Part shown: positions 8,694 to 21,320 of the stretch, in pieces | Numbering within the stretch: the first letter of the stretch is position 1 | Layout of the letters: every line of letters starts with the position of its first letter | Source of the DNA: Shinella lacus | Lineage (GTDB): Bacteria; Pseudomonadota; Alphaproteobacteria; Rhizobiales; Rhizobiaceae | Assembly: GCF_010994755.1 (NCBI RefSeq) | Contig: NZ_WHSB02000001.1 | Span: forward strand, 62,001 to 126,000 | Reading direction: 5' to 3' | DNA: 64,000 nt | The notes under the pieces: generated by a model | What the model was told of the DNA's origin: nothing | Seen by the model: only the letters and a program-made list of their open reading frames with translations | Database searches by the model: none | Position numbers and translations under genes: made by a program

Positions 8694-9521
8694 GTGGAGA
8701 TCATCCGCGCCTGCGGCCTCAACATCTTTCTGGACACCTCGCCCGTGCGCCGGGAGATGGTTTGGGAGAGCGTAACACCGCCCGGCCACTGGATCGGCAC
8801 GCTGCTGGAAGGCAGCCTCTCGGTGGAGCAGGAGGGTTTTGGCTCGCATCTCTGGCAAAGCGGCGGCGGTACGATCTTTTCCGCGAGCGAGCATGTGCAT
8901 ACGCGCCATGTGGTGCTGCGCGACGGCGGCGTCGCGGCGGTCTTCGTGCAGATTGAGGAGGAGATGGCCGAACCGCTGATGGGGGGCGATACGCTGTCGC
9001 TGATCGCCCGCAAGACGCCGGACCCGCGCCTCGCGCTGCCGGAAGCCGCGCGCATGATCGCCTGGCAGATGCTCGGCTGCCCGCTGCAAGGGCCTGCCCG
9101 ACGCCTCTATATGACCGGCAAGGCCATGGAGATGGTGGCGCATATTCTCGACGACGCGACCGTGCCCGACCATGGCGGCGCGGCCAATTGGCCGACGCGC
9201 GACATCGCCCGGCTGCACGAGGCACGCGGCATCCTGCTTGCCGAACTCGCCGCACCGCCGAGCGTGCCCGAGCTCGCCCGCCGGGTGGGCACGAATGCCA
9301 AGAAGCTCGGCGCGGGTTTCCAGGCACTGTTCGGCAGCACCGTCTATGGTTTCGTCAAGACGAGCCGGCTCGATGCCGCACGGCTGTTGCTTGAAGGCGG
9401 CGAGACGTCGATTGCTCATGTCGCGCGGCAGGTCGGCTACCAGCCGCAGCATTTCGCCACCGAATTCCGCCGCCGCTTCGGCATGGCGCCCACCACCATC
9501 ACGGGCCGGGCACGCACGTAG
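8694..9521 (+). CDS. AraC family regulator, PchR-like
   Basis: A 275-residue regulator starting at GTG 8694, 6 bp after GGAGA. The N-terminal ~180 residues form a cupin-like effector domain. The C-terminal ~90 residues hold two HTH motifs; NAKKLGAGFQALFGSTVYGF and ETSIAHVARQVGYQ match the PchR/YbtA class, including the FG.T...Y segment shared by siderophore-responsive AraC proteins. Its gene immediately precedes a TonB-dependent receptor and an FptX-like importer, the same company PchR keeps in pseudomonads. It most likely activates the downstream uptake genes when the cognate ferri-siderophore is inside the cell. Confidence 0.85.
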   Translation: MEIIRACGLNIFLDTSPVRREMVWESVTPPGHWIGTLLEGSLSVEQEGFGSHLWQSGGGTIFSASEHVHTRHVVLRDGGVAAVFVQIEEEMAEPLMGGDTLSLIARKTPDPRLALPEAARMIAWQMLGCPLQGPARRLYMTGKAMEMVAHILDDATVPDHGGAANWPTRDIARLHEARGILLAELAAPPSVPELARRVGTNAKKLGAGFQALFGSTVYGFVKTSRLDAARLLLEGGETSIAHVARQVGYQPQHFATEFRRRFGMAPTTITGRART

Positions 9522-9540
9522 TCCGGTTCCCGAACACCTT

Positions 9541-9564
9541 TGGCGCAATCCCGAACGTGCGCCA
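9541..9564. repeat. 7-bp inverted repeat between regulator and receptor genes
   Basis: TGGCGCA (9541-9547) and TGCGCCA (9558-9564) are perfect inverted copies with a 10-bp spacer inside the 100-bp gap before the TonB receptor. It could be the binding site of the AraC-type protein or a leader hairpin. No RirA/Fur-like or Irr-like box is obvious in the gap. Confidence 0.4.
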
Positions 9565-9621
9565 GATTGTGCCCCCGGCAGGCCGCATGCGAAGACCCAC
9601 GCAAAGCTGAGGGAATTCGTC

Positions 9622-11727
9622 ATGAATCAAAAACGCCACGCCGCCTTGCGCACCGCCACCATCCTCGCGACCGCGGGCTTCGTCCTCTTCGATGCCGCCC
9701 GGCTTTCCGCGCAGGAGCAACCGGTCGAAGGTACGACGGTGCTTAAACAGATCGTCGTAACTGCCCGCCGCCGTGAGGAAAAAATCCAGAACGCGCCCGT
9801 CGCCGTCACCGCCATTGCCGGCGAGGACCTCGGCAAGGGCCGGACGGATACGATGGAGGACGTGGCCTTCAAGACGCCGAACGTGCTGTTCAACGGCCAG
9901 GGCGGCCCGGTCAGCATCCGCGGCGTCACCTCGCTCGGTATTTCCGGCGGCGTCGATCGCCAGCCGGCCGTCGGCATGTTCCTCGACGACGTCTACATCG
10001 CCCGACCGATGGGCTATCCCTTCATCCTGGAAGATCTGGAGCGCGTCGAGGTCGTGCGCGGCTCGCAGGCCACCCTCTATGGCAAGAACACGATCGGCGG
10101 CGCGGTGAACCTCATCTCGCGCGAGCCGGGCGACACGGCGGGCGGCGAATTCTCCGCGACGATCGGCACCGATCTCGACAGCCGCTTCAAGGCCGCCTTC
10201 GAAACGCCGATCGAGGGCACCGGCTGGGCTGTGCGCACCTCCGCGGCCTGGAGCGGCAATCGCGGCTACATCGAAAACCTCGTCAATGGCGATGATGTCA
10301 GCGATACCGACGTGTTCGGAGGTCGCGTCGTGGCGACCGGCGAGGTTGGCGACGACACCCGCGTGAAAATCATCGGCGACTTTACCCGCGACCGCAGCGA
10401 TGGCGGGCTCTGGTATGCGCCCCTCCCGCTCGCCTTCAACCACAAGGCGACACATGATTTTAATCCGGACAACAGCGTCGACAGCGGCGGCGTCTCGGTG
10501 CGCCTCGACCACGATTTCGAGACCGTGCGCCTGACCTCGGTGACGGCGTTCCGCGGCCATGAGATGAGCAGCTATCTCGACGGCGATTTCACCGCGACAC
10601 CCTATATCGGCCAGGCGCAGGAGGAGACCCAGCGCCAGTTCAGCCAGGAACTGCGCCTCTCCTCGCTCGACGACGACGTGTTCCGCTGGAGCGGCGGGCT
10701 GTTCTACATGCACGAGCGTTTCGAGGGCACGCAGTTTTTCGACCTCGTCTCCTTCCCGCGCAACGTCTGGAGCCGCGACGTCTTCGAGCAATCGGCCGAC
10801 ACGTTCTCGGTCTTCGGCGAGGCGAGCTATTTCGTGACGCCGGCATGGGAACTCTCGGCCGGCGGGCGCTACACCTATGACCGCAAGTCGACGACGAGCG
10901 AGATTTCCTCGCCGAGCGGCAGCTTCATGTTCGGCACGCCGGGCCGGGCGGAGGGCGACGTCTCCTTCTCCAACTTCTCGCCGGAAGCCGCCATCACCTA
11001 CCACGTCTCGGAAGGCAACATCGCCTACGCCAAGATCAGCCACGGCTACAAGTCGGGCGGCATCAGCCCCTATATCGAGGAGGACGGCTCGGCGAACCGC
11101 TACGATCCGGAAACCACCATGTCCTACGAACTCGGCACCAAGGCGACGTCGGACGACGGCCGGTTCACGCTGGCGGCATCGCTATTCTACATCGACTGGA
11201 AGGACCAGCAGGCGGTCATCTACACGACGCCGTTCACACGCGTCTATCGCAACGCCGCCGCCGCGACATCGAAGGGTTTCGAGATCGAGGCGACGGCCCA
11301 GTTGACCGAGGAGATCGGCCTTCGCGGCGGCTACGGTTATACCCATGCCCGCTACGACGAATTCGTCGATACCGTGATGGGCGCGGACTATAGCGGCAAC
11401 GACCTGCCCTTCGCACCGCGCCACAGTTTCAGCGCCGGTGTGAATTTCGCCCGCGAGCTCGAAGCCGGCGCGACGCTGAAGGCCGGCATCGACTACACGT
11501 TCCGCAGCTCCTACGCCTTCACCTCGGACAATAAGTACCGGCAGGACCCGACCCATCTGGTCGATGCCCATATCGGCATCGAGAAGGACGGCTGGAGTGC
11601 CAGCCTCTGGGCCAAGAACCTGACGGACGAGCGCTATCTGAAGAACTATTTCAGCTATAGCGGCACCGATATGGGCGTCGCCGCAGCCGGCCGCACCGTC
11701 GGCATCACGCTGGCGAAGGTGTGGTGA
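9622..11727 (+). CDS. TonB-dependent siderophore receptor
   Basis: A 701-residue outer-membrane receptor. The ATG at 9622 starts a signal peptide ending near RLSAQ; the frame is open upstream but that part overlaps the regulator gene. A TonB-box-like TTVLKQIVVTARRREEKI is followed by a plug domain (about residues 45-160; VEVVRGSQATLYGKNTIGGA) and a 22-strand-type barrel ending in the terminal aromatic strand VGITLAKVW. The AraC regulator and FptX-like gene on either side indicate ferric siderophore uptake. No siderophore biosynthesis gene is in the window, so the ligand is probably a xenosiderophore. The stop overlaps the next start (TGATG). Confidence 0.9.
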   Translation: MNQKRHAALRTATILATAGFVLFDAARLSAQEQPVEGTTVLKQIVVTARRREEKIQNAPVAVTAIAGEDLGKGRTDTMEDVAFKTPNVLFNGQGGPVSIRGVTSLGISGGVDRQPAVGMFLDDVYIARPMGYPFILEDLERVEVVRGSQATLYGKNTIGGAVNLISREPGDTAGGEFSATIGTDLDSRFKAAFETPIEGTGWAVRTSAAWSGNRGYIENLVNGDDVSDTDVFGGRVVATGEVGDDTRVKIIGDFTRDRSDGGLWYAPLPLAFNHKATHDFNPDNSVDSGGVSVRLDHDFETVRLTSVTAFRGHEMSSYLDGDFTATPYIGQAQEETQRQFSQELRLSSLDDDVFRWSGGLFYMHERFEGTQFFDLVSFPRNVWSRDVFEQSADTFSVFGEASYFVTPAWELSAGGRYTYDRKSTTSEISSPSGSFMFGTPGRAEGDVSFSNFSPEAAITYHVSEGNIAYAKISHGYKSGGISPYIEEDGSANRYDPETTMSYELGTKATSDDGRFTLAASLFYIDWKDQQAVIYTTPFTRVYRNAAAATSKGFEIEATAQLTEEIGLRGGYGYTHARYDEFVDTVMGADYSGNDLPFAPRHSFSAGVNFARELEAGATLKAGIDYTFRSSYAFTSDNKYRQDPTHLVDAHIGIEKDGWSASLWAKNLTDERYLKNYFSYSGTDMGVAAAGRTVGITLAKVW

Positions 11728-12983
11728 TGAGCGTGAACCCCGACACCCCGCCGCTCGCCGCCGCCAACACTTCCAGCGAAGCCGGGCGCCTGCGCTTCTT
11801 CCTGCTGATCGGCGCGCTCTATTTCACGCAGGGGCTGCCCATGGGGCTTTCCATGGAGGCCGTGCCGGTGCTGATGCGTCAGGCCGGCGTCTCGATGGAT
11901 GTCATCGCGCTGGTGCCGCTCGCCGGCCTTCCCTGGATCATAAAATTCCTCTGGGCGCCGATGGTCGACAACCGCTGGCATGCCGGCCTCGGGCGGCGCA
12001 AGAGCTGGATCGTGCCGATGCAGGCGATCCTCGCCGCCTGCCTGCTGCTGCTCGGCTTCCTGCCGCTCGAAGGCAGCGGCCTGTGGATGGCGGTGACGGC
12101 ACTCGCCATCGGCACGATTGCCAGCGCCACGCAGGACACCGCGACAGACGGCCTTGCCGCGGAACAACTGGCGGGACGCGGGCTCGCCTATGCCAATGCG
12201 TTGCAAGTGGGAGGCATGATGGCGGGCTTCATGGTCGGCGGCGGCGGCGTGCTGATGGTCGCCGATGCGCTCGGCCAGCAGGGCGTGTTCCTGCTGCTGG
12301 CGCTATTCCCGGCCCTGACGGTCGCCATCGCGCTTGGCTGGCGCGAACCGCCAAGGCCGGTTCCGGCACGCGAAGACACCAGGGCGCGGCTTGCCTATAC
12401 GTTCCGGCGGCCCGGCGTGGCCCTCCTCCTTGTGCTCGCCTTCATCTATGGCGGCGCGCATGCCGGTGGGCTCAGCGTCAGCAAAATCTTTCTCGTCGAC
12501 CAGGGCTGGTTGAACCAGGATACCGGGCTCGTCTCTACGATCAGCGGCCTCGTCATGCTCGTCATCGGCTGCCCGCTCGGCAGTGCGCTGACCGCACGCA
12601 ACCGCTGGGTCGCCATGGGCACGGGCATGCTGCTCGCCGCCACCTCGTTTGCCGCCTGGGGGCTGATCGCCGGCGGCATCCTGCCGTCCGGCTGGCTCTC
12701 GGTGTCGCTGGCGATCGGGCTCCTGTCGGTGGCAAGCGGCTTCATCGCCGTCTCCGCGGCGACCATCATCATGGCCTTCGGCGGGGCTGGCAAACAGGCG
12801 GGCACGGACGTCACCGTGCTGCAAAGCGCCAACGTGCTCGGCGAGATGGCGATTGCCGGCGTCGTCGTCTGGGTCGCCGGGCGCACCGGCTATGCCGCGA
12901 CATTCGCGGGCGCCACCGTGGCGCTTGTCCTCGCCGCACTCTTCGTCTCGCGCGCCGCGCGCTCCCTCCCCGTGACCCGATAG
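11727..12983 (+). CDS. RhtX/FptX-type siderophore importer (MFS/AmpG-like)
   Basis: A 418-residue inner-membrane carrier with about 12 hydrophobic segments. The N-terminal pattern FFLLIGALYFTQGLPMGL followed by GLPWIIKFLWAPMVD is the AmpG/RhtX/FptX family signature (rhizobactin 1021 and pyochelin importers are the characterised members). The ATG at 11727 shares its A with the receptor stop; GTG codons at 11721 and 11724 are alternatives. Placed directly after a TonB receptor it should carry the intact ferri-siderophore across the inner membrane by proton motive force, replacing an ABC importer. AmpG muropeptide permease activity is less likely in this context. Confidence 0.83.
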   Translation: MSVNPDTPPLAAANTSSEAGRLRFFLLIGALYFTQGLPMGLSMEAVPVLMRQAGVSMDVIALVPLAGLPWIIKFLWAPMVDNRWHAGLGRRKSWIVPMQAILAACLLLLGFLPLEGSGLWMAVTALAIGTIASATQDTATDGLAAEQLAGRGLAYANALQVGGMMAGFMVGGGGVLMVADALGQQGVFLLLALFPALTVAIALGWREPPRPVPAREDTRARLAYTFRRPGVALLLVLAFIYGGAHAGGLSVSKIFLVDQGWLNQDTGLVSTISGLVMLVIGCPLGSALTARNRWVAMGTGMLLAATSFAAWGLIAGGILPSGWLSVSLAIGLLSVASGFIAVSAATIIMAFGGAGKQAGTDVTVLQSANVLGEMAIAGVVVWVAGRTGYAATFAGATVALVLAALFVSRAARSLPVTR

Positions 12984-12999
12984 ATCGAGGATCCGATCC

Positions 13000-13635
13000 A
13001 TGCTTTCGCTCTCGTCCACCATGGTCGACCGCATCGCGCGGCGGCCGGGCGGCCTTCTCGGCTACCTGCTTTACCGCTTCCCCTTCGGCCACAAGATCGG
13101 CTTCAACCTGGCCTTCGACCGCCTGCCGCCGGAAAAGAGCGACCTCGTGCTCGAAGTCGGTTGCGGCGGCGGCGTCTTCCTGCGCCGCCTGCTCGCCGGC
13201 GGCTGTCGCGCCATCGCGATCGACCACAGCCCGGACATGGTGGCCAATTCCGGCAGGCTGAACGCCCGGGCGCTCGCCGAAGGGCGGCTGGCGCTGCACC
13301 AGGCGGACGCCGCGGCCCTACCGGTGGCGGATGGCGCGGTCGACAAGGTGTACTGCCTCAACGCCTTCTTCTTCTTCCCGCAACCAGCCGAAAGCCTGCG
13401 CGAAATGGCCCGCGTGTTGAAACCCGGCGGTCGGCTGGCGCTGATCACCTCGCCGCCTGCGTTTCGCCAGCAGATCGCGCGCTTTTCCCCCAGCATGGCG
13501 GAGAACATGCGCTTCGACGCACCGGAGACGCTCGCCGAATGGGCGAAGGATGCCGGCCTGAAGCCGGTCGAGACCCGCGAGGTCGCGACCGCGGGCTTCC
13601 TGTTCATTGCCAACAAGGAGGCGGCGCATGAGTGA
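13000..13635 (+). CDS. class I SAM-dependent methyltransferase
   Basis: A 211-residue methyltransferase. Motif I LVLEVGCGGGVFLRRLLAGG binds SAM, IAIDHSPDMV is the acidic end of strand 2, and VDKVYCLNAFFFFPQPAESL with MARVLKPGGRLAL is the typical post-motif pattern of the Methyltransf_11 family. It begins 16 bp after the importer gene and overlaps the small cupin gene by 8 bp, so it is part of the siderophore uptake unit. A methyltransferase is not a standard part of rhtX/fptX loci; it could modify the imported siderophore during iron release. Substrate is unknown. Confidence 0.8.
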   Translation: MLSLSSTMVDRIARRPGGLLGYLLYRFPFGHKIGFNLAFDRLPPEKSDLVLEVGCGGGVFLRRLLAGGCRAIAIDHSPDMVANSGRLNARALAEGRLALHQADAAALPVADGAVDKVYCLNAFFFFPQPAESLREMARVLKPGGRLALITSPPAFRQQIARFSPSMAENMRFDAPETLAEWAKDAGLKPVETREVATAGFLFIANKEAAHE

Positions 13636-13909
13636 CCCGCAGATCATCGAAGGCCCCGGCTTTCGCGGCCGCATCACCGGCAGGCTCGGCGACATGCTGG
13701 TCATCGACGCTGAGGTGGAGGCCGACATCCCGGCGCACGCCGCCGACACCGAGGAATTCGCCATCGTCGTCTCCGGCCGATTCGAGGTGACGATAAACGG
13801 CACGACGCTGCCCTGCGGCCCGGGCGATCACCTCGTCGTCGAGGCCGGCGTGGAACACGCCATCCGCGTCATCGAGCCCGGCCGCCTCGTGCTGATCGGC
13901 AGGATGTAG
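13628..13909 (+). CDS. small cupin domain protein
   Basis: A 93-residue single-domain cupin. The segment DTEEFAIVVSGRFEVTINGT and the following GPGDHLVVEAGVEHAIRVIE give the two conserved cupin strands, with Glu, His and His at possible metal positions. The ATG at 13628 overlaps the methyltransferase stop by 8 bp, implying translational coupling. A role next to siderophore import is not established; metal or ligand binding is a guess. This is the last gene of the locus. Confidence 0.75.
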   Translation: MSDPQIIEGPGFRGRITGRLGDMLVIDAEVEADIPAHAADTEEFAIVVSGRFEVTINGTTLPCGPGDHLVVEAGVEHAIRVIEPGRLVLIGRM

Positions 13910-13999
13910 CGACCTTCCGGCGGAAACTTGCCGGCAACACGGCCTCCGCGTCAAGAAATTACGCGCCATGACGTCCGTGCGAATTTTTCTAACAAAAAC

Positions 14000-14027: not shown

Positions 14028-14065
14028 TCAGCATCACTGACACATTCGATATAGGAGGATGCGAC

Positions 14066-17000
14066 TTGGAGCACCGTGGCAACACCACCGGCCTTTACGA
14101 TCCCTCGCAAGAGAAGAGCAGTTGCGGCGTTGGCTTCATCACGCGAAAAGACGGCGTCCAGACGCATGACGTGCTCAAGAGGGGCCATGAGGCGCTGTGC
14201 GCCGTGCCGCATCGCGGCGGCATGTCGGCGGAAGGCGTGGGCGATGGCGCCGGCGTTTCGGTCGATCTGTCGCTCGGCTTCTTCCGCAAGCTGACCGCAC
14301 GCCCCGACCTCCAGTCGCGCCGCTTCGGCGTCGGCAACTTCTTCCTGCCGAGCGACCCCGCCTGCCGCGCGGAAGCAGAACAGATCATCGGCGATGCGCT
14401 CGCCGGGCAGGGTTTCGCCCTGCTTTTGGAGCGTGCCGTTCCGGTCGACGAAAGCGCCATCCGGCCGGCCGCCGTGCGCTACCAATTGCCGATCCGCCAA
14501 TGGGTCTTTGCCTGCCATGACGCGGCGGCAAGCGAGGCTGTATTCGATTTCCGCATCCACAAGGCGCTGCTGGCGATCGAGGCTCGTGCCTATATCGAGC
14601 CGCACCTTGCCGGGCTCTATCCGCTCTCGATGAGTGCAAGGACGCAGGTGCTGAAGGGCCGGCTGAACTCCAACGAGGTCATGCCCTATTTCCGCGACCT
14701 GGTGGACCTCGACCACACCGTCAACACCATGTATTTCCACACGCGGTTTTCCACCAACACCGACCCGCATCCCTCCATGGCCCAGCCCTTCCGGCTGATG
14801 GCGCACAACGGCGAACTCAACACCGACCGCAAGAACCGCCTCTCCGAGGCCGCGATTGCGCTTGCAAAAAACGCCTCGATCATCCGGCCGAAGGGCCAGT
14901 CGGACAGCTGCCGTCTCGATCAGACCTTGCAGACCCGCGTGCTGGAGGACGGGCTCGATCTCGTCACCGCCGTCGTCTCGATGATGCCGCCGGCCTGGGA
15001 GAACGACGATACGCTGTCGCCCGAGGTCGTGGCGATGCTCGAATACTTCTCGCTCTACGAGGAGAAGAACGACGGCCCCGCCGCCCTCATCTTCGGCGAT
15101 GGCGACATTATCGGCGCACGGCTCGACCGGCTGGGCCTGCGCCCGCTGCGCACGGTCGAGACGGCGGACTATCTCTGCGTCATGTCGGAAGCGGGCCAGA
15201 TCGCCTTTCCGCCGGAAGCCGTGCTGCGCCGTGGCCGCATCGAGGCCGGCGGCATGCTCTGCTACGATCACACCGCCAAGCGTGCCTTCGGCACCAACGA
15301 GGCGCTGGAGATGCTGGCCGCCCGCCGCCCTTATCGCGACCTGCTCCGCGACGCGCGCGTGAACCTCGCCGACCTGCCGGAAGTCCCGGCCGACGCGCAG
15401 GGCTCGCCGCTGCGCTACAATGGCGATCTCGAACGCCAACAGCGTTACGTCGCCTATTCGTTCAACCAGGAAAGCTTCAAGTTCCTGATGGACCCGATGC
15501 TCCAGACCGGGGCGGAGAAGATCTCCGCCATGGGCTACGGCAACGCCATCAATGCGCTCTCCGACCAGGAAGGCGGCGTCGCGAAATACTTCTCGCAGCG
15601 TTTCGCGCAGGTGACCAACCCGCCGCTCGATTCGATCCGCGAGGCGGACGGCATGACGCTGCGCGTGGCGCTCGGCGCCAAGCCGAATATCGGTGCGAAG
15701 GCGGCCCGCCAGATCGTCGTGCCCTCGCCGATCCTCACCCATCTCGACATGCTGCGCATCCGCGAGCAGGCGGAAACGCCGGTGCGGCGGTTCGAAATGC
15801 TGTTCACGCCCGACCTTGAGGACGCGGCGGCGAACGAACATGCGCTCGAACAGGCGATCGCCACCCTCTGCGAGGCGATTGCCGGCTTTGCCCGCGAGGA
15901 AGGCGGCATCGCCGTTGTCACCGACCGGCATGTGGCGAAGGGCCGTGCGGCATTGCCGATGATCCTCGTCGTCTCCGCCGTCAACCAGAAGCTCATCGAG
16001 GAAGGCCTGCGGCTGCGGCTCTCGCTGGTCGTCGAAAGCGGGCAGATCTGCTCCTCGCACCATGTCGCGGCCGTGCTCGGCTTCGGCGCCTCGGCGGTCT
16101 ATCCGCTCGGCGTGCAGTTCCGCGCCGAGGAAAAGTTCGGCGCGGAGGCCGACAAGGCCTTCAAGCGCTTCGCCAAGGCGGCCGAAAAGGCGCTGATGAA
16201 GACCATGGGCAAGGTCGGCCTCTGCACCGCGGAAAGCTATATCGGCGGCGAGTTCTTCGAGCCCAACTTCCTCGACACCAACGATCCGGTGCTGAAGCGC
16301 TACTTCCCCAACGTGAAGACGCCGGTCGGCGGCGTGAATTTCAAGGTCATCGCAGCCGCCGTCGCCGGCTGGCACGCCAAGGCGCTGACCGTGAAAAGCG
16401 AGAACGACATCCCGCTTCTTGGCCTCTTCAAGGAGCGCGCCGAGGGCGCCGGCCACTCCTTCGGCACGGCGGCCGTGCGCGGCTTCGTCGACATGACGGA
16501 GGAGAAGATCGCCTTCGACGGCGCGGGTGAGGACGATCCCTTCCTGCGCCTGCTGACGCTCAACCGGCTGGACGACGCCTTCGGCCTCGACGATGCCGCC
16601 TATAGCAACAACGGCTTCGAGAAGCTGACATCCGAGGCGATCGATCGTTTCACCATCACGCCCGGCTACCGCACCTTCATCCGCCAGATGACCGAGGAAC
16701 GCACCCGGCGGCCCGCGGCCTTGCGCGACGTGCTCGCGCTGCCGGCGGACATCACTTACCTCGCGTCGGCGGAGGATTTCCGCAAGGAGATGGGCCGCTT
16801 CTCACGCAAGGGCAACAACAGTTTCATGGTGCGCGGCCTCGCCTGCGAAACACTTGCCGACGATACCTTCCGCCTGACACTCGCCGGTGGCGAACTGGCG
16901 CGGCTCGCGGCGCTTGGCCAGTCCCTCGTCATGCGTTTCGGCCCCGACATCCTCGGCCATTGGCTGGAGGGCGGGGCGTTGATGGTGCAGGCGGCCGGCG

Positions 17001-19549
17001 AGGCGCTGGACTATCTCGCGCTCATCCGCACCGCGCCGGAGAGCATTCCGCTCGATGCCGTGCAGAAGGCGAGCGAGATCACGCCGCTGCTCGCCTCCGG
17101 CGCCATGAGCCATGGCGCGCTGGTCGCCAACGCCCACGAGGCCGTCGCGCACGGCACCAACATGGTCGGCGGCATGTCGAATTCCGGCGAGGGCGGCGAA
17201 CATCTTTCGCGCTATGGCACGATCCGCGCCTCGCGCATCAAGCAGTTCGCCTCCGGCCGCTTCGGCATCTGGGCCGGCTATCTCGCCGATCCGATGCTGG
17301 AGGAGTTGGAAATCAAGATCGGCCAGGGCGCCAAGCCCGGTGAAGGCGGCCAGCTTCCGGCGCAGAAGGTGACGGTCGAGATCGCCGCCGCCCGCGGTGG
17401 TACGCCCGGCGTGGAGCTCGTCTCCCCGCCCCCGCACCACGACACCTATTCGATCGAGGACCTCGCCCAGCTCATTCACGACTGCAAGGCGGCGCGCGTG
17501 CGCGTCATTGTCAAGCTCGTCTCCTCGGAGGGTATCGGCACCATCGCCGTCGGTGTCGCCAAGGCGGGAGCCGATGTCATCAACGTCGCCGGCAACACCG
17601 GCGGCACGGGGGCGGCCGCCGTCACCAGCCTGAAATATACCGGCCGCGCCGCGGAGATCGGCATTGCCGAAGTGCACCAGGCACTCTGCGCCAACGGTAT
17701 CCGCCAGAAGGTGCAATTGCGCTGCTCCGGCGCGCACCAGACGGCGAGCGACGTCGTCAAGTCGGCGCTTCTCGGCGGCGACAGCTTCGAATTCGGCACG
17801 ACGGCGCTGATGATGCTGAAATGCGTGATGGCCAAGAACTGCAACGTCAAATGCCCCGCCGGCCTCACCACCAATCCGGAAGTCTTTGACGGCGACCCGC
17901 GGGCGCTGGCGCAATACCTCCTCAACATCGCCCACGAAACGCGGGAAATCCTCGCAGCCCTCGGCCTGACGTCCCTGCGGGAAGCGCGCGGCCGCAGCGA
18001 CCTGCTGCACCTCCTCGACCATCCTTCGAGCGTCGGGCAGCTCGACCTTCGCGCGATGCTTGCGGTCGTGGATGAAGTGAAGATCACCGATCCGGTCTAT
18101 ATGGAGAAGGATTTTGCGGTCGACGACGGTTTCATCGACCTCGTTCGCTCCGCCCTCCTCGACGGCAGGCGCCAGACGGTGGAGCTTGGCGGTAACCGCT
18201 ACCTCAACAATTGCAACAAGACCGTCGGCGGCCAGCTCGCCGTCGATATCGAGCGCCTGCTCAACCACGAGCTCACCGAAGCACAGGCACGTGACCTGCC
18301 CGCCGTGCGGCAGGACGATCGTGGCCGCCGTTTCCTCGATGCCGACAGCGTGCGGATTTCCACCTCGGGTTCGGCCGGCCAGTCCTTCGGCGCCTTCTGC
18401 AACGACGGCATGGCGCTGACCCATACCGGCACCTGCAATGACGGCGTCGGGAAAAGTGCCTGCGGCGGCGTCATCACCGTGCGCTCGCCGGGCGGCGGCT
18501 CGCAGGAGGCCGGCGGCAATGTGCTGGTCGGCAATTTCGCGCTGTTCGGCGCGACCGGCGGGCGCCTCTTCGTCGAGGGCCAGGCGGGCGACCGCTTTGC
18601 CGTGCGCAATTCCGGCTCGACCGCCGTAGTCGAAGGCGTCGGCGATTTCTGCTGCGAATACATGACGAACGGCGCAGTGCTGAACCTCGGCACCTTCGGC
18701 AAGGGTTTTGGCAACGGCATGAGCGGCGGCTTCGTCTACCAGTACGATCCCTATGGCGACCTGCCGAAGAAGATGAGCCACGACTCCATCCTGCTGGGCA
18801 CGATCGGCGACGAGATGGATGCCATGGCGGCGGTGCATGCGGATGCCATCCGCCTGATGCTGGAATGGCATGTGGCGGCGACGGGCTCCGAGAAGGCCCG
18901 CTGGCTGATCGAAAACTGGGAGAGCGAAAGGCACAATTTCGTCTATGGCCTGCCGCGCGCACTGCTGCTCTACCAGGACAGCGACGCCATCCTGAAGGCG
19001 AAGAGCCGCAAGGATCTCGTCGAGGAACTGTCCACCGCGCTCGCCGCCCATCAGGTCCGAAAATTCAAGCTCGCCTATCGCGACCGAAAGGCGGTCCTCA
19101 ACGGCACCGTGCCGGGTTACGGCGAGACAGATACGGAGGGCATGTTCGTGCTTCTCAACAACTATACTGTGCTCAGCATGGCGCAGTCGCTCGCGCTTTC
19201 GCGGGTTCCGGCCGCGCGCGGCGCATCCGATCCGGCCGTCGAGAAGGCGGTGCGCAACCTGCTGCTGACGGAGGATTTTTCGCTCATGCAGCGGCTTGCC
19301 CGCTACGCCCGCGAGGCGATCGCCGACTATGACGACGAAGCGCTCGCCGTCATGGTCGCCTCGAAGCGCCTCGACGACTATCGCCAGGCGCTCAAGGGCC
19401 GCAACACGCGCTCGATCGACAGCCCCGGCACCTATGGCTGGATTCTCCACCAGACCGCCCGCAATGTCGAACGCATCGGCCGCATCCCGAGCTTCGAGGA
19501 ATTGTTCGCGCGGCAGGCGATTTCCGGGTTCGCCCCGGCCAGACAGTGA
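14066..19549 (+). CDS. glutamate synthase large subunit-like protein, extended (1827 aa)
   Basis: Starts at TTG 14066, 7 bp after AGGAGG. Domains: class II glutaminase with Cys20 in SSCGVGF, to be exposed by removal of 19 residues; RFSTNT and HNGELNT (about residues 227-250); central domain with RFAQVTNPPLDSIRE; FMN/synthase domain (about 1000-1330) with QGAKPGEGGQLP; GXGXG domain (about 1460-1560). Three things are odd. The cysteines of the expected [3Fe-4S] site are C1253, C1259 and C1263 (CX5CX3C), one residue shorter than the usual CX5CX4C. The usual DGGTGA loop reads NTGGTGA. About 190 extra C-terminal residues follow the normal end of GltB. The neighbour is a diflavin reductase, not GltD. 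A ferredoxin-type GltS or a different glutamine amidotransferase reaction are the alternatives. Confidence 0.85.
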   Translation: MEHRGNTTGLYDPSQEKSSCGVGFITRKDGVQTHDVLKRGHEALCAVPHRGGMSAEGVGDGAGVSVDLSLGFFRKLTARPDLQSRRFGVGNFFLPSDPACRAEAEQIIGDALAGQGFALLLERAVPVDESAIRPAAVRYQLPIRQWVFACHDAAASEAVFDFRIHKALLAIEARAYIEPHLAGLYPLSMSARTQVLKGRLNSNEVMPYFRDLVDLDHTVNTMYFHTRFSTNTDPHPSMAQPFRLMAHNGELNTDRKNRLSEAAIALAKNASIIRPKGQSDSCRLDQTLQTRVLEDGLDLVTAVVSMMPPAWENDDTLSPEVVAMLEYFSLYEEKNDGPAALIFGDGDIIGARLDRLGLRPLRTVETADYLCVMSEAGQIAFPPEAVLRRGRIEAGGMLCYDHTAKRAFGTNEALEMLAARRPYRDLLRDARVNLADLPEVPADAQGSPLRYNGDLERQQRYVAYSFNQESFKFLMDPMLQTGAEKISAMGYGNAINALSDQEGGVAKYFSQRFAQVTNPPLDSIREADGMTLRVALGAKPNIGAKAARQIVVPSPILTHLDMLRIREQAETPVRRFEMLFTPDLEDAAANEHALEQAIATLCEAIAGFAREEGGIAVVTDRHVAKGRAALPMILVVSAVNQKLIEEGLRLRLSLVVESGQICSSHHVAAVLGFGASAVYPLGVQFRAEEKFGAEADKAFKRFAKAAEKALMKTMGKVGLCTAESYIGGEFFEPNFLDTNDPVLKRYFPNVKTPVGGVNFKVIAAAVAGWHAKALTVKSENDIPLLGLFKERAEGAGHSFGTAAVRGFVDMTEEKIAFDGAGEDDPFLRLLTLNRLDDAFGLDDAAYSNNGFEKLTSEAIDRFTITPGYRTFIRQMTEERTRRPAALRDVLALPADITYLASAEDFRKEMGRFSRKGNNSFMVRGLACETLADDTFRLTLAGGELARLAALGQSLVMRFGPDILGHWLEGGALMVQAAGEALDYLALIRTAPESIPLDAVQKASEITPLLASGAMSHGALVANAHEAVAHGTNMVGGMSNSGEGGEHLSRYGTIRASRIKQFASGRFGIWAGYLADPMLEELEIKIGQGAKPGEGGQLPAQKVTVEIAAARGGTPGVELVSPPPHHDTYSIEDLAQLIHDCKAARVRVIVKLVSSEGIGTIAVGVAKAGADVINVAGNTGGTGAAAVTSLKYTGRAAEIGIAEVHQALCANGIRQKVQLRCSGAHQTASDVVKSALLGGDSFEFGTTALMMLKCVMAKNCNVKCPAGLTTNPEVFDGDPRALAQYLLNIAHETREILAALGLTSLREARGRSDLLHLLDHPSSVGQLDLRAMLAVVDEVKITDPVYMEKDFAVDDGFIDLVRSALLDGRRQTVELGGNRYLNNCNKTVGGQLAVDIERLLNHELTEAQARDLPAVRQDDRGRRFLDADSVRISTSGSAGQSFGAFCNDGMALTHTGTCNDGVGKSACGGVITVRSPGGGSQEAGGNVLVGNFALFGATGGRLFVEGQAGDRFAVRNSGSTAVVEGVGDFCCEYMTNGAVLNLGTFGKGFGNGMSGGFVYQYDPYGDLPKKMSHDSILLGTIGDEMDAMAAVHADAIRLMLEWHVAATGSEKARWLIENWESERHNFVYGLPRALLLYQDSDAILKAKSRKDLVEELSTALAAHQVRKFKLAYRDRKAVLNGTVPGYGETDTEGMFVLLNNYTVLSMAQSLALSRVPAARGASDPAVEKAVRNLLLTEDFSLMQRLARYAREAIADYDDEALAVMVASKRLDDYRQALKGRNTRSIDSPGTYGWILHQTARNVERIGRIPSFEELFARQAISGFAPARQ

Positions 19550-19559
19550 GGCAGATTCG

Positions 19560-21320
19560 ATGAAGATCCCCTATATCCCGGAAGACGCACCGTTCAACGC
19601 CGACCAGCGCGCCTGGCTTTCCGGCTTCCTCGCCGGCCTGCATTCCCGCCTCGCCATCGAAACGCCGGCCGTGGCCGCAGCTAGCGCACCGGCGAAGGCC
19701 GCGAGCCTGCACATCCTCTACGGCACCCAGACCGGCAACGCCGAACGGGTGGCGATGGATGCGGCGGCGATCGCCCGCAGCCTGGGGCTCGCACCGGAAG
19801 TGGCCGGCCTCGACGATATCGGCATGGATGAACTTGCCGCCATGCAACGCCTGATCGTCGTCACCTCCACCTATGGCGAAGGCGAGATGCCGGACAATGC
19901 GCAACTGTTCTGGGAGGCGCTTTCCGCCGCCGCCGCGCCGCGGCTGGAAGGCTTGCGCTTCGGCGTCCTGGCGCTCGGCGACACCGGCTATGACGGCTTC
20001 TGCCAGGCAGGCAAGCTCATCGACATGCGCCTCGAGCAGCTCGGCGCGACGCGCATCCTCGCCCGGCGCGACTGCGATATCGACTACGAGGACCCGGCCG
20101 CCGCATGGGTCGGCGAGGCCCTGCCGCTTGCCGCCGCGACGGCGGACAGCGATGGCATTGCGGTTGTCGCACAGCCGCTTGCCGCCGCTGCCCCGGCTCG
20201 CGAGGCTTCCGGCTGGAACCGCAAGACCCCCTACCCGGCCCGGCTCGCCGTCAACCGCCGGCTTTCCGGCAGCGCGTCGGCCAAGGAGATCCGCCACTAC
20301 GAATTCGACCTCGGCGACAGCGGGCTCACCTACGAAGCCGGCGACGCGCTCGGCGTCATGCCGGTCAATGATCCCGCGCTCGTGCACCTCCTCCTCTCCC
20401 GCCTCAGCGCCGATCCGCAAGCACTGGTGGGCGACGTGCCGCTCGAAGCCCTGCTCACCACAAAGGTCGAGATCTCGACCCCGTCACGCGACCTGATCGC
20501 CGAGGTGGAGCGGCGGGCCGGCAACGAGGAACTGACCCATGTGCTGCGCAACGGCGACAAAGAAGCGCTCGACGCCTTCCTTTGGGGCAAGGATATCTGC
20601 GACCTGCTGGCGCTGGCACCCGAAGGGGCGTCTTCGGCGACGGAGTTCGCAGCCCTGCTGAAGCCGCTCCAGCACCGCGCCTATTCTATCTCGTCCAGCC
20701 CGCATGCCGCCAGCGGCAGCGTGCACCTGACGATCGCCAGCGTGCGTTACCACGCGGATGGCCGCGATCGGGGCGGCGTGTGCTCGACCTTCCTCGCCGA
20801 CCGCGTGGCGCAGGATGGGACAGCTGGCATCTTCGTCTCCCAGAATAAGTCCTTCCGCCTGCCCGCCGACAACGACGCGCCGGTGATCATGGTCGGCCCC
20901 GGCACCGGCATCGCCCCCTTCCGCGCCTTCCTGCAGGAACGCCGCACCCGTGGCGCAAAGGGCCGCAACTGGCTGTTTTTCGGCGACCAGCACCGCGCGA
21001 GCGATTTCATCTACGAGGACGAACTGGCGGAGATGAGCCGCGACGGGCTGCTGACACGGCTCGACCTCGCCTTTTCCCGCGACCAGCAGGAGAAGATCTA
21101 CGTGCAGACCCGCATGCGGGAGAACGGCAAGGCGCTCTACGCCTGGCTGGAGGACGGCGCGTCGTTCTACGTCTGCGGCGACGCCAGCCGCATGGCCCGC
21201 GACGTCGACAGCGCGCTTGCCGACATCATCGCTACCCATGGCGGTATGACGGCAGACCGCGCGACCGACTATATCGCCGGCCTGAAGCGGGAAAAGCGCT
21301 ATCTTCGCGACGTCTACTGA
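19560..21320 (+). CDS. CysJ-like diflavin reductase (FMN/FAD/NADPH)
   Basis: A 586-residue flavoprotein starting at ATG 19560, 10 bp after the glutamate synthase-like gene. The N-terminal flavodoxin domain has YGTQTGNAERVA and STYGEGEMPDN (about residues 57-125). The FAD domain shows RAYSISSSPHA near residue 373 and GGVCSTFLAD. The NADPH domain shows GPGTGIAPFRAF near 445 and YVCGDA near 538, ending in RYLRDVY with the usual terminal aromatic residue. This matches sulfite reductase alpha subunits, but no hemoprotein CysI lies nearby. The arrangement suggests it passes electrons from NADPH through FAD and FMN to the glutamate synthase-like partner. Confidence 0.85.
   Translation: MKIPYIPEDAPFNADQRAWLSGFLAGLHSRLAIETPAVAAASAPAKAASLHILYGTQTGNAERVAMDAAAIARSLGLAPEVAGLDDIGMDELAAMQRLIVVTSTYGEGEMPDNAQLFWEALSAAAAPRLEGLRFGVLALGDTGYDGFCQAGKLIDMRLEQLGATRILARRDCDIDYEDPAAAWVGEALPLAAATADSDGIAVVAQPLAAAAPAREASGWNRKTPYPARLAVNRRLSGSASAKEIRHYEFDLGDSGLTYEAGDALGVMPVNDPALVHLLLSRLSADPQALVGDVPLEALLTTKVEISTPSRDLIAEVERRAGNEELTHVLRNGDKEALDAFLWGKDICDLLALAPEGASSATEFAALLKPLQHRAYSISSSPHAASGSVHLTIASVRYHADGRDRGGVCSTFLADRVAQDGTAGIFVSQNKSFRLPADNDAPVIMVGPGTGIAPFRAFLQERRTRGAKGRNWLFFGDQHRASDFIYEDELAEMSRDGLLTRLDLAFSRDQQEKIYVQTRMRENGKALYAWLEDGASFYVCGDASRMARDVDSALADIIATHGGMTADRATDYIAGLKREKRYLRDVY

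Follow-up and report, generated by a model that had tools for sequence, protein, structure and literature searches.

The stretch of DNA analysed here, 64,000 nucleotides (nt) in all and called the window below, carries on its forward strand two adjacent genes, the first coding for a protein related to GltB, the large subunit of glutamate synthase, and the second for a diflavin reductase of the CysJ type. We use gltX (protein GltX), a label coined here for convenience, for the GltB-like large-subunit gene. It is an open reading frame with a TTG start (14066-19549, + strand; 1827 amino acids, aa), and the diflavin frame (19560-21320, + strand; 586 aa, ATG start) begins 10 bp after its stop. Both frames and their Pfam domains agree with an earlier note on this DNA, which had described a 1827-residue GltB-like gene followed 10 bp later by a CysJ-like reductase with flavin mononucleotide (FMN), flavin adenine dinucleotide (FAD) and NADPH domains. 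That note had also seen neither gltD nor cysI nearby, and E. coli GltD and CysI, used as tblastn queries, indeed had no match in the whole window (E up to 1e-3). Glutamate synthase is a central enzyme of nitrogen assimilation. We consider it quite probable that the pair is an NADPH-dependent glutamate synthase in which the NADPH-oxidising subunit is the CysJ-type diflavin and not GltD. The features of the pair are as follows.

14053-14059, + strand: AGGAGGA, likely ribosome-binding site ahead of the gltX TTG start, as read from the sequence
14066-19549, + strand: gltX, GltB-like large subunit, 1827 aa
14123-15340, + strand: class-II glutamine amidotransferase domain (GATase_2, residues 20-425), its first residue the catalytic Cys20
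15443-16261, + strand: central domain of GltX (Glu_syn_central, residues 460-732)
16514-17035, + strand: family-specific insert of GltX, about residues 817-990
17030-17968, + strand: FMN/synthase barrel domain of GltX
17822-17854, + strand: CX5CX3C motif of GltX, expected ligands of a [3Fe-4S] cluster
18320-18814, + strand: GXGXG beta-helix domain of GltX (residues 1419-1583, Pfam)
19043-19546, + strand: family-specific C-terminal extension of GltX, predicted helical, about residues 1660-1827
19560-21320, + strand: diflavin reductase, CysJ-type, 586 aa
19713-20084, + strand: flavodoxin (FMN) domain of the diflavin (Flavodoxin_1, Pfam)
20220-21209, + strand: FAD and NADPH domains of the diflavin (FAD_binding_1 and NAD_binding_1, Pfam)

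GltX has the Pfam domains GATase_2, Glu_syn_central, Glu_synthase and GXGXG in the order of the canonical large subunit, all above the Pfam cut-offs, and scores just below the cut-off of the NCBIfam equivalog PRK11750 for the glutamate synthase large subunit (1043.3 bits, cut-off 1047). A genome scan with one genome per species gave at least 584 confirmed relatives, from which the best 80 were taken, with deep members under-sampled; together with the window and five plasmid loci they make a set of 86 aligned proteins, all distinct, the lowest pairwise identity being 59%. The catalytic Cys20, which follows a short stretch resembling a propeptide, and the AHNGE(L/I)NT motif are conserved in 86/86, and the synthase core is nearly invariant and aligns closely to GltB. 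All three Fe-S cysteines are kept with the spacing CX5CX3C, and not CX5CX4C, in all 86 proteins and also in both diverged members of the family (52% and 55% identity), a motif one residue shorter than that of E. coli GltB and of the window genome's own GltB.

Compared with GltBD (E. coli; PDB 2vdc, 6s6s, 7mfm), the pair differs in having a diflavin for GltD as well as in this shortened Fe-S motif, and GltX itself, at about 34-39% identity to the GltBD large subunit, is longer by some 130 residues ahead of the synthase domain and by some 170 at the C terminus. The insert (about residues 817-990) is without counterpart in E. coli GltB or in the genome's own GltB, and its residues 919-990, approximately, are predicted to form a small bb-a-bb-a-b domain; sequence comparison with Pfam and PDB gave no convincing relative for either the insert or the C-terminal extension. 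These additional regions may serve to dock the diflavin partner.

The hosts of GltX among the best 80, according to record titles, are for the Proteobacteria members of the Rhizobiaceae, other alphaproteobacteria, Methylobacillus, Lampropedia, the Pantoea/Erwinia/Mixta group and SAR92 gammaproteobacteria, and beyond them Rhodococcus, Nocardia, Mycobacterium and relatives, with one metagenome-assembled genome labelled Verrucomicrobiales. Nine plasmid records contain full-length relatives at 63% identity or more; the following ones, among the 20 listed of 240, do not exceed 37%, the range in which canonical GltB sets in. A diflavin gene was found immediately 3' of gltX on the same strand at 85/85 loci (80 genome and 5 plasmid), which had been picked by GltX alone, the diflavin not being used; it was also found at four of four additional loci, including those of the two diverged members, and at 39/39 later enterobacterial loci, one of them with the diflavin match in two pieces. 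The pairing, whose conservation beyond this strain the earlier note had made its test, is thus kept at 128 of 128 loci outside the window and down to 52% GltX identity. That note had further asked for co-occurrence in the absence of an adjacent gltD, and at all 128 loci the place of GltD is taken by a diflavin. In one genome (G428, locus L140) gltB, gltD, gltX and the diflavin gene are consecutive on one strand, gltBD being present upstream as a separate pair, and both kinds of glutamate synthase lie side by side.

Between the gltX stop and the point at which the diflavin match begins there are -4 to 189 nt, and the two overlap by 1-4 nt in 13 of the 85 loci. Over the 86 pairs, the pairwise identities of GltX and of the diflavin are correlated with r = 0.93 (maximum of 0.11 in 500 permutations), although common descent alone would raise r. 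Strict pairing, correlated divergence and gene overlap all speak against the explanation that GltX is fed by ferredoxin or another carrier and that the diflavin plays an indirect part, for instance as reductase of a soluble flavodoxin or ferredoxin that supplies GltX and other enzymes, which we regard as unlikely. In its favour, the three Fe-S cysteines of GltX are also found in ferredoxin-dependent glutamate synthase, and a related diflavin module is fused elsewhere to other acceptors. With the ferredoxin-dependent enzyme (PDB 1llw, 1ofd) GltX shares a large subunit working without GltD and an electron entry expected near the [3Fe-4S] cluster, and it differs by the dedicated NADPH diflavin encoded next to it. 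Moreover, an extra stretch of 1llw (chain residues 915-933, approximately), which we take to be the ferredoxin loop and which separates two aligned pieces, has no counterpart in the GltX alignment. Beside the pairing, we count for a diflavin-fed glutamate synthase the altered Fe-S motif, the lack of the long loop of the ferredoxin enzyme and the four-gene row of G428.

A gene of 276-351 aa directly after the diflavin recurs in 13 of the 86 loci (L008, L029, L044, L056, L063, L065, L070, L072, L076, L077, L078, L081 and L086), and the one protein of this kind that was scanned had no Pfam or NCBIfam match.

The GltX partners are annotated as sulfite reductase flavoprotein or alpha subunit in 4/4 annotated records, and the best NCBIfam match of the diflavin in the window is the cysJ equivalog TIGR01931, for which it nevertheless remains under the cut-off (615 bits, cut-off 668.15); it clears the NCBIfam model NF004859, sulfite reductase subunit alpha, with 492 against 432 bits. 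These annotations would suit an ordinary CysJ that serves a CysI made elsewhere and whose site beside gltX is incidental, as would the fact that it is the sole PF00667 gene found in the window genome, where a sulfite/nitrite-reductase-type gene exists. We nonetheless judge this explanation highly improbable. In a tree of 28 GltX partners and 18 other diflavins, all partners but one fall into a single clade (27 of 28, support 0.984), separate from those CysJ proteins of Enterobacterales that were tested, so that "CysJ-like", the term of the earlier note, gives the right family and misses that the partners are a group of their own. At least two PF00667 diflavin genes are present in each of 17 enterobacterial genomes with GltX (one second copy being split over two frames), and three CysJ proteins were examined from Pantoea/Erwinia genomes that carry GltX; they share 75-78% identity with E. 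coli CysJ and cluster with it.

The distribution of the diflavin also argues against an ordinary CysJ. In the family of the window genome, Rhizobiaceae judging by relatives, the C-terminal extension of GltX occurs in 4 of 151 genomes, and a full-length diflavin at 59% identity or more is present in precisely those four. The 57% match of a fifth genome (residues 35-586) belongs to a P450 fusion, of which it forms the reductase half, and the remaining long diflavin matches do not exceed 50%; they include fusions to molybdoenzymes and one gene adjacent to a CysI-type gene. Among 398 genomes of the phylum, 6 have the extension, including the window genome itself and two whose coordinates mark them as counted before. 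The pair nevertheless resembles CysJI, since a CysJ-family diflavin would feed NADPH electrons to the Fe-S enzyme of the adjacent gene; it differs in that the acceptor is GltB-like, with no sirohaem protein, and that the gene beside the diflavin is gltX and not cysI.

Just outside the partner clade are the partner diflavin of Tsukamurella and a diflavin module fused to P450. The P450-diflavin fusion is encoded at L128:6731-9694 (genome G146), and its reductase half is 57% identical to the GltX partner over residues 35-586. Locus L130 encodes, according to a domain search, a nitrate-reductase-like molybdoenzyme fused to a CysJ-type diflavin, and L133 a similar fusion, judged from length, sequence start and CysJ match only. 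The gene for a 575-aa diflavin at L129 (genome G156; 50% identity to the GltX partner) adjoins others that read as thioesterase- and polyketide-synthase-like.

The window genome (7.04 Mb; closest plasmid records from Shinella, 91.8%) carries a second GltB of canonical size on contig C12; some 1.2 kb past the synthase-domain match of this GltB there is a match to GltD, at 39% identity to the E. coli protein. As this genome also has GltBD, the GltX-diflavin pair is there an addition and no replacement, and its local role is probably conditional. The sulfite/nitrite-reductase-type gene is on contig C13, and C24 has a frame of 821 aa with this domain; about 0.6 kb downstream of the C13 gene lies a ferredoxin-NADP reductase-like gene (best model match, below the cut-off), another point against the diflavin being the electron donor of a sulfite reductase. 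Upstream of gltX, at 8694-13910 of the window, there are frames that we read from the sequence as an AraC-like regulator and as TonB-receptor-like, transporter-like, methyltransferase-like and cupin-like.

The situation is different in enterobacteria. A search with the synthase domain covered 49 GltX genomes and one plasmid record: in all 17 enterobacterial genomes and in one SAR92 genome it found the long GltX frame alone, without canonical GltB. No stand-alone GltD was found in any of these 17 (E. coli GltD query, 25 genomes searched), fourteen giving short weak matches only, one none and two a match at 58-60%. The latter two matches lie within frames of 651 and 660 aa, of which the one checked is YgfT/AegA-like. 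According to tblastn with E. coli K-12 proteins, gltX has rpoN, hpf, ptsN, rapZ, npr, mtgA and arcB upstream at 17/17 enterobacterial loci and sspB, sspA, rpsI and rplM downstream of the pair at 15/17, yhcC being missing and gltD present in 0/17. The gltBD genes of E. coli K-12 are flanked by arcB-yhcC on one side and, at some distance, by sspBA on the other; the enterobacterial pair therefore sits at the position that gltBD has in E. coli (DISPLACEMENT OF gltBD).

The same holds at the scale of the genus to which Pantoea ananatis belongs, which as sampled (61 genomes) includes records under the names Mixta and Enterobacter ludwigii too. GltX only was found in 51 genomes, canonical GltB only in 9, both in none, and neither in one of 1.4 Mb. 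The diflavin follows gltX in all 51, of which 14 belong to the first set of loci and 37 to the later enterobacterial ones, and three of the GltX frames (G334, G344, G364) are shorter than 1800 aa. The record that bears the name Enterobacter ludwigii (EnVs2; L057, G009) carries GltX and groups in this genus, so its species name may be wrong. In the wider family GltX is present in 4 of 119 genomes, and 3 of these lack canonical GltB. Nine genomes were searched again, with the long form only in G564, G717, G263 and G312 and both forms in G428, G286, G061, G106 and G141.

The 2025 article PMC12364357 reports that P. ananatis AJ13355 is without a close homologue of E. coli GOGAT, that the identity between its putative gltB and a large subunit of Agrobacterium is 64%, and that a gltB knockout results in glutamate auxotrophy, the last being credited to a 2012 genome paper. 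In another P. ananatis strain (L064), GltX shows 68% identity with Agrobacterium GltX and 37% with E. coli GltB; from the 64% of the article against these two values we infer that the AJ13355 gltB (PAJ_RS19710) is GltX. A word search of the main text of the article found no gltD, cysJ, sulfite reductase, small subunit or flavoprotein. In the part consulted, a review of iron-sulfur flavoenzymes (PMC8097209) gives as electron inputs of glutamate synthase the GltD type, separate or as a fused NADH type, and the ferredoxin type, plus archaeal single-domain forms, and the word diflavin is absent from it. No description of a diflavin-fed glutamate synthase turned up in the open-access literature.

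The earlier note had left two outcomes, a third type of glutamate synthase or a pair making a different product. A different product, such as an amino acid other than glutamate made from a different 2-oxo acid, with the support for glutamate being secondary, might be thought of for the 31/49 sampled genomes in which canonical GltB is also present and a second function of GltX is possible. We think it very unlikely for the pair in general, as the synthase core is so close to GltB, as GltX stands alone in 51/61 genomes of the P. ananatis genus and as the gltB knockout is, by the account in PMC12364357, a glutamate auxotroph. The absence of canonical GltB and of stand-alone GltD in 17/17 enterobacterial genomes and the position of the pair at the place of gltBD, together with this auxotrophy, lead us to favour the glutamate synthase.

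Several points weigh against a diflavin-fed main glutamate synthase. In the 31/49 genomes and in the window genome, GltX need not be the main synthase since canonical GltB is also there, and the enterobacterial genome G286 likewise has both; the diflavin passes the sulfite reductase alpha model NF004859; a neighbour of the partner clade is fused to P450, which means that such a module can serve other acceptors; the identity of PAJ_RS19710 with GltX is deduced from percentages; and no assay of the diflavin partner was found in the open-access literature.

In the proposed scheme, Cys20 of GltX would hydrolyse glutamine and the ammonia would be channelled to the FMN barrel and added to 2-oxoglutarate, the FMN reducing the imine. 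The FAD of the diflavin would take electrons from NADPH, and the FMN of its flavodoxin domain would hand single electrons to the [3Fe-4S] cluster of GltX and onward to the barrel FMN. As a precedent for an assimilatory enzyme gaining a diflavin module, a diflavin-containing monomeric nitrate reductase has reportedly been described by Tan and co-workers (J Biol Chem, 2020, going by the title); the catalytic enzyme is a different one, and "monomeric" points to a single chain.

Taken as a whole, the pair is likely to represent a diflavin-dependent third class of glutamate synthase, horizontally spread over Proteobacteria and Actinobacteria, that displaced GltBD in place and serves most Pantoea as their sole glutamate synthase, among them the biotechnologically interesting P. 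ananatis. If so, the NADPH module of a core enzyme would be exchangeable for an unrelated one, the annotation "sulfite reductase subunit alpha" would have to be corrected in many genomes, and the synthesis of glutamate by most Pantoea without gltBD would be explained.

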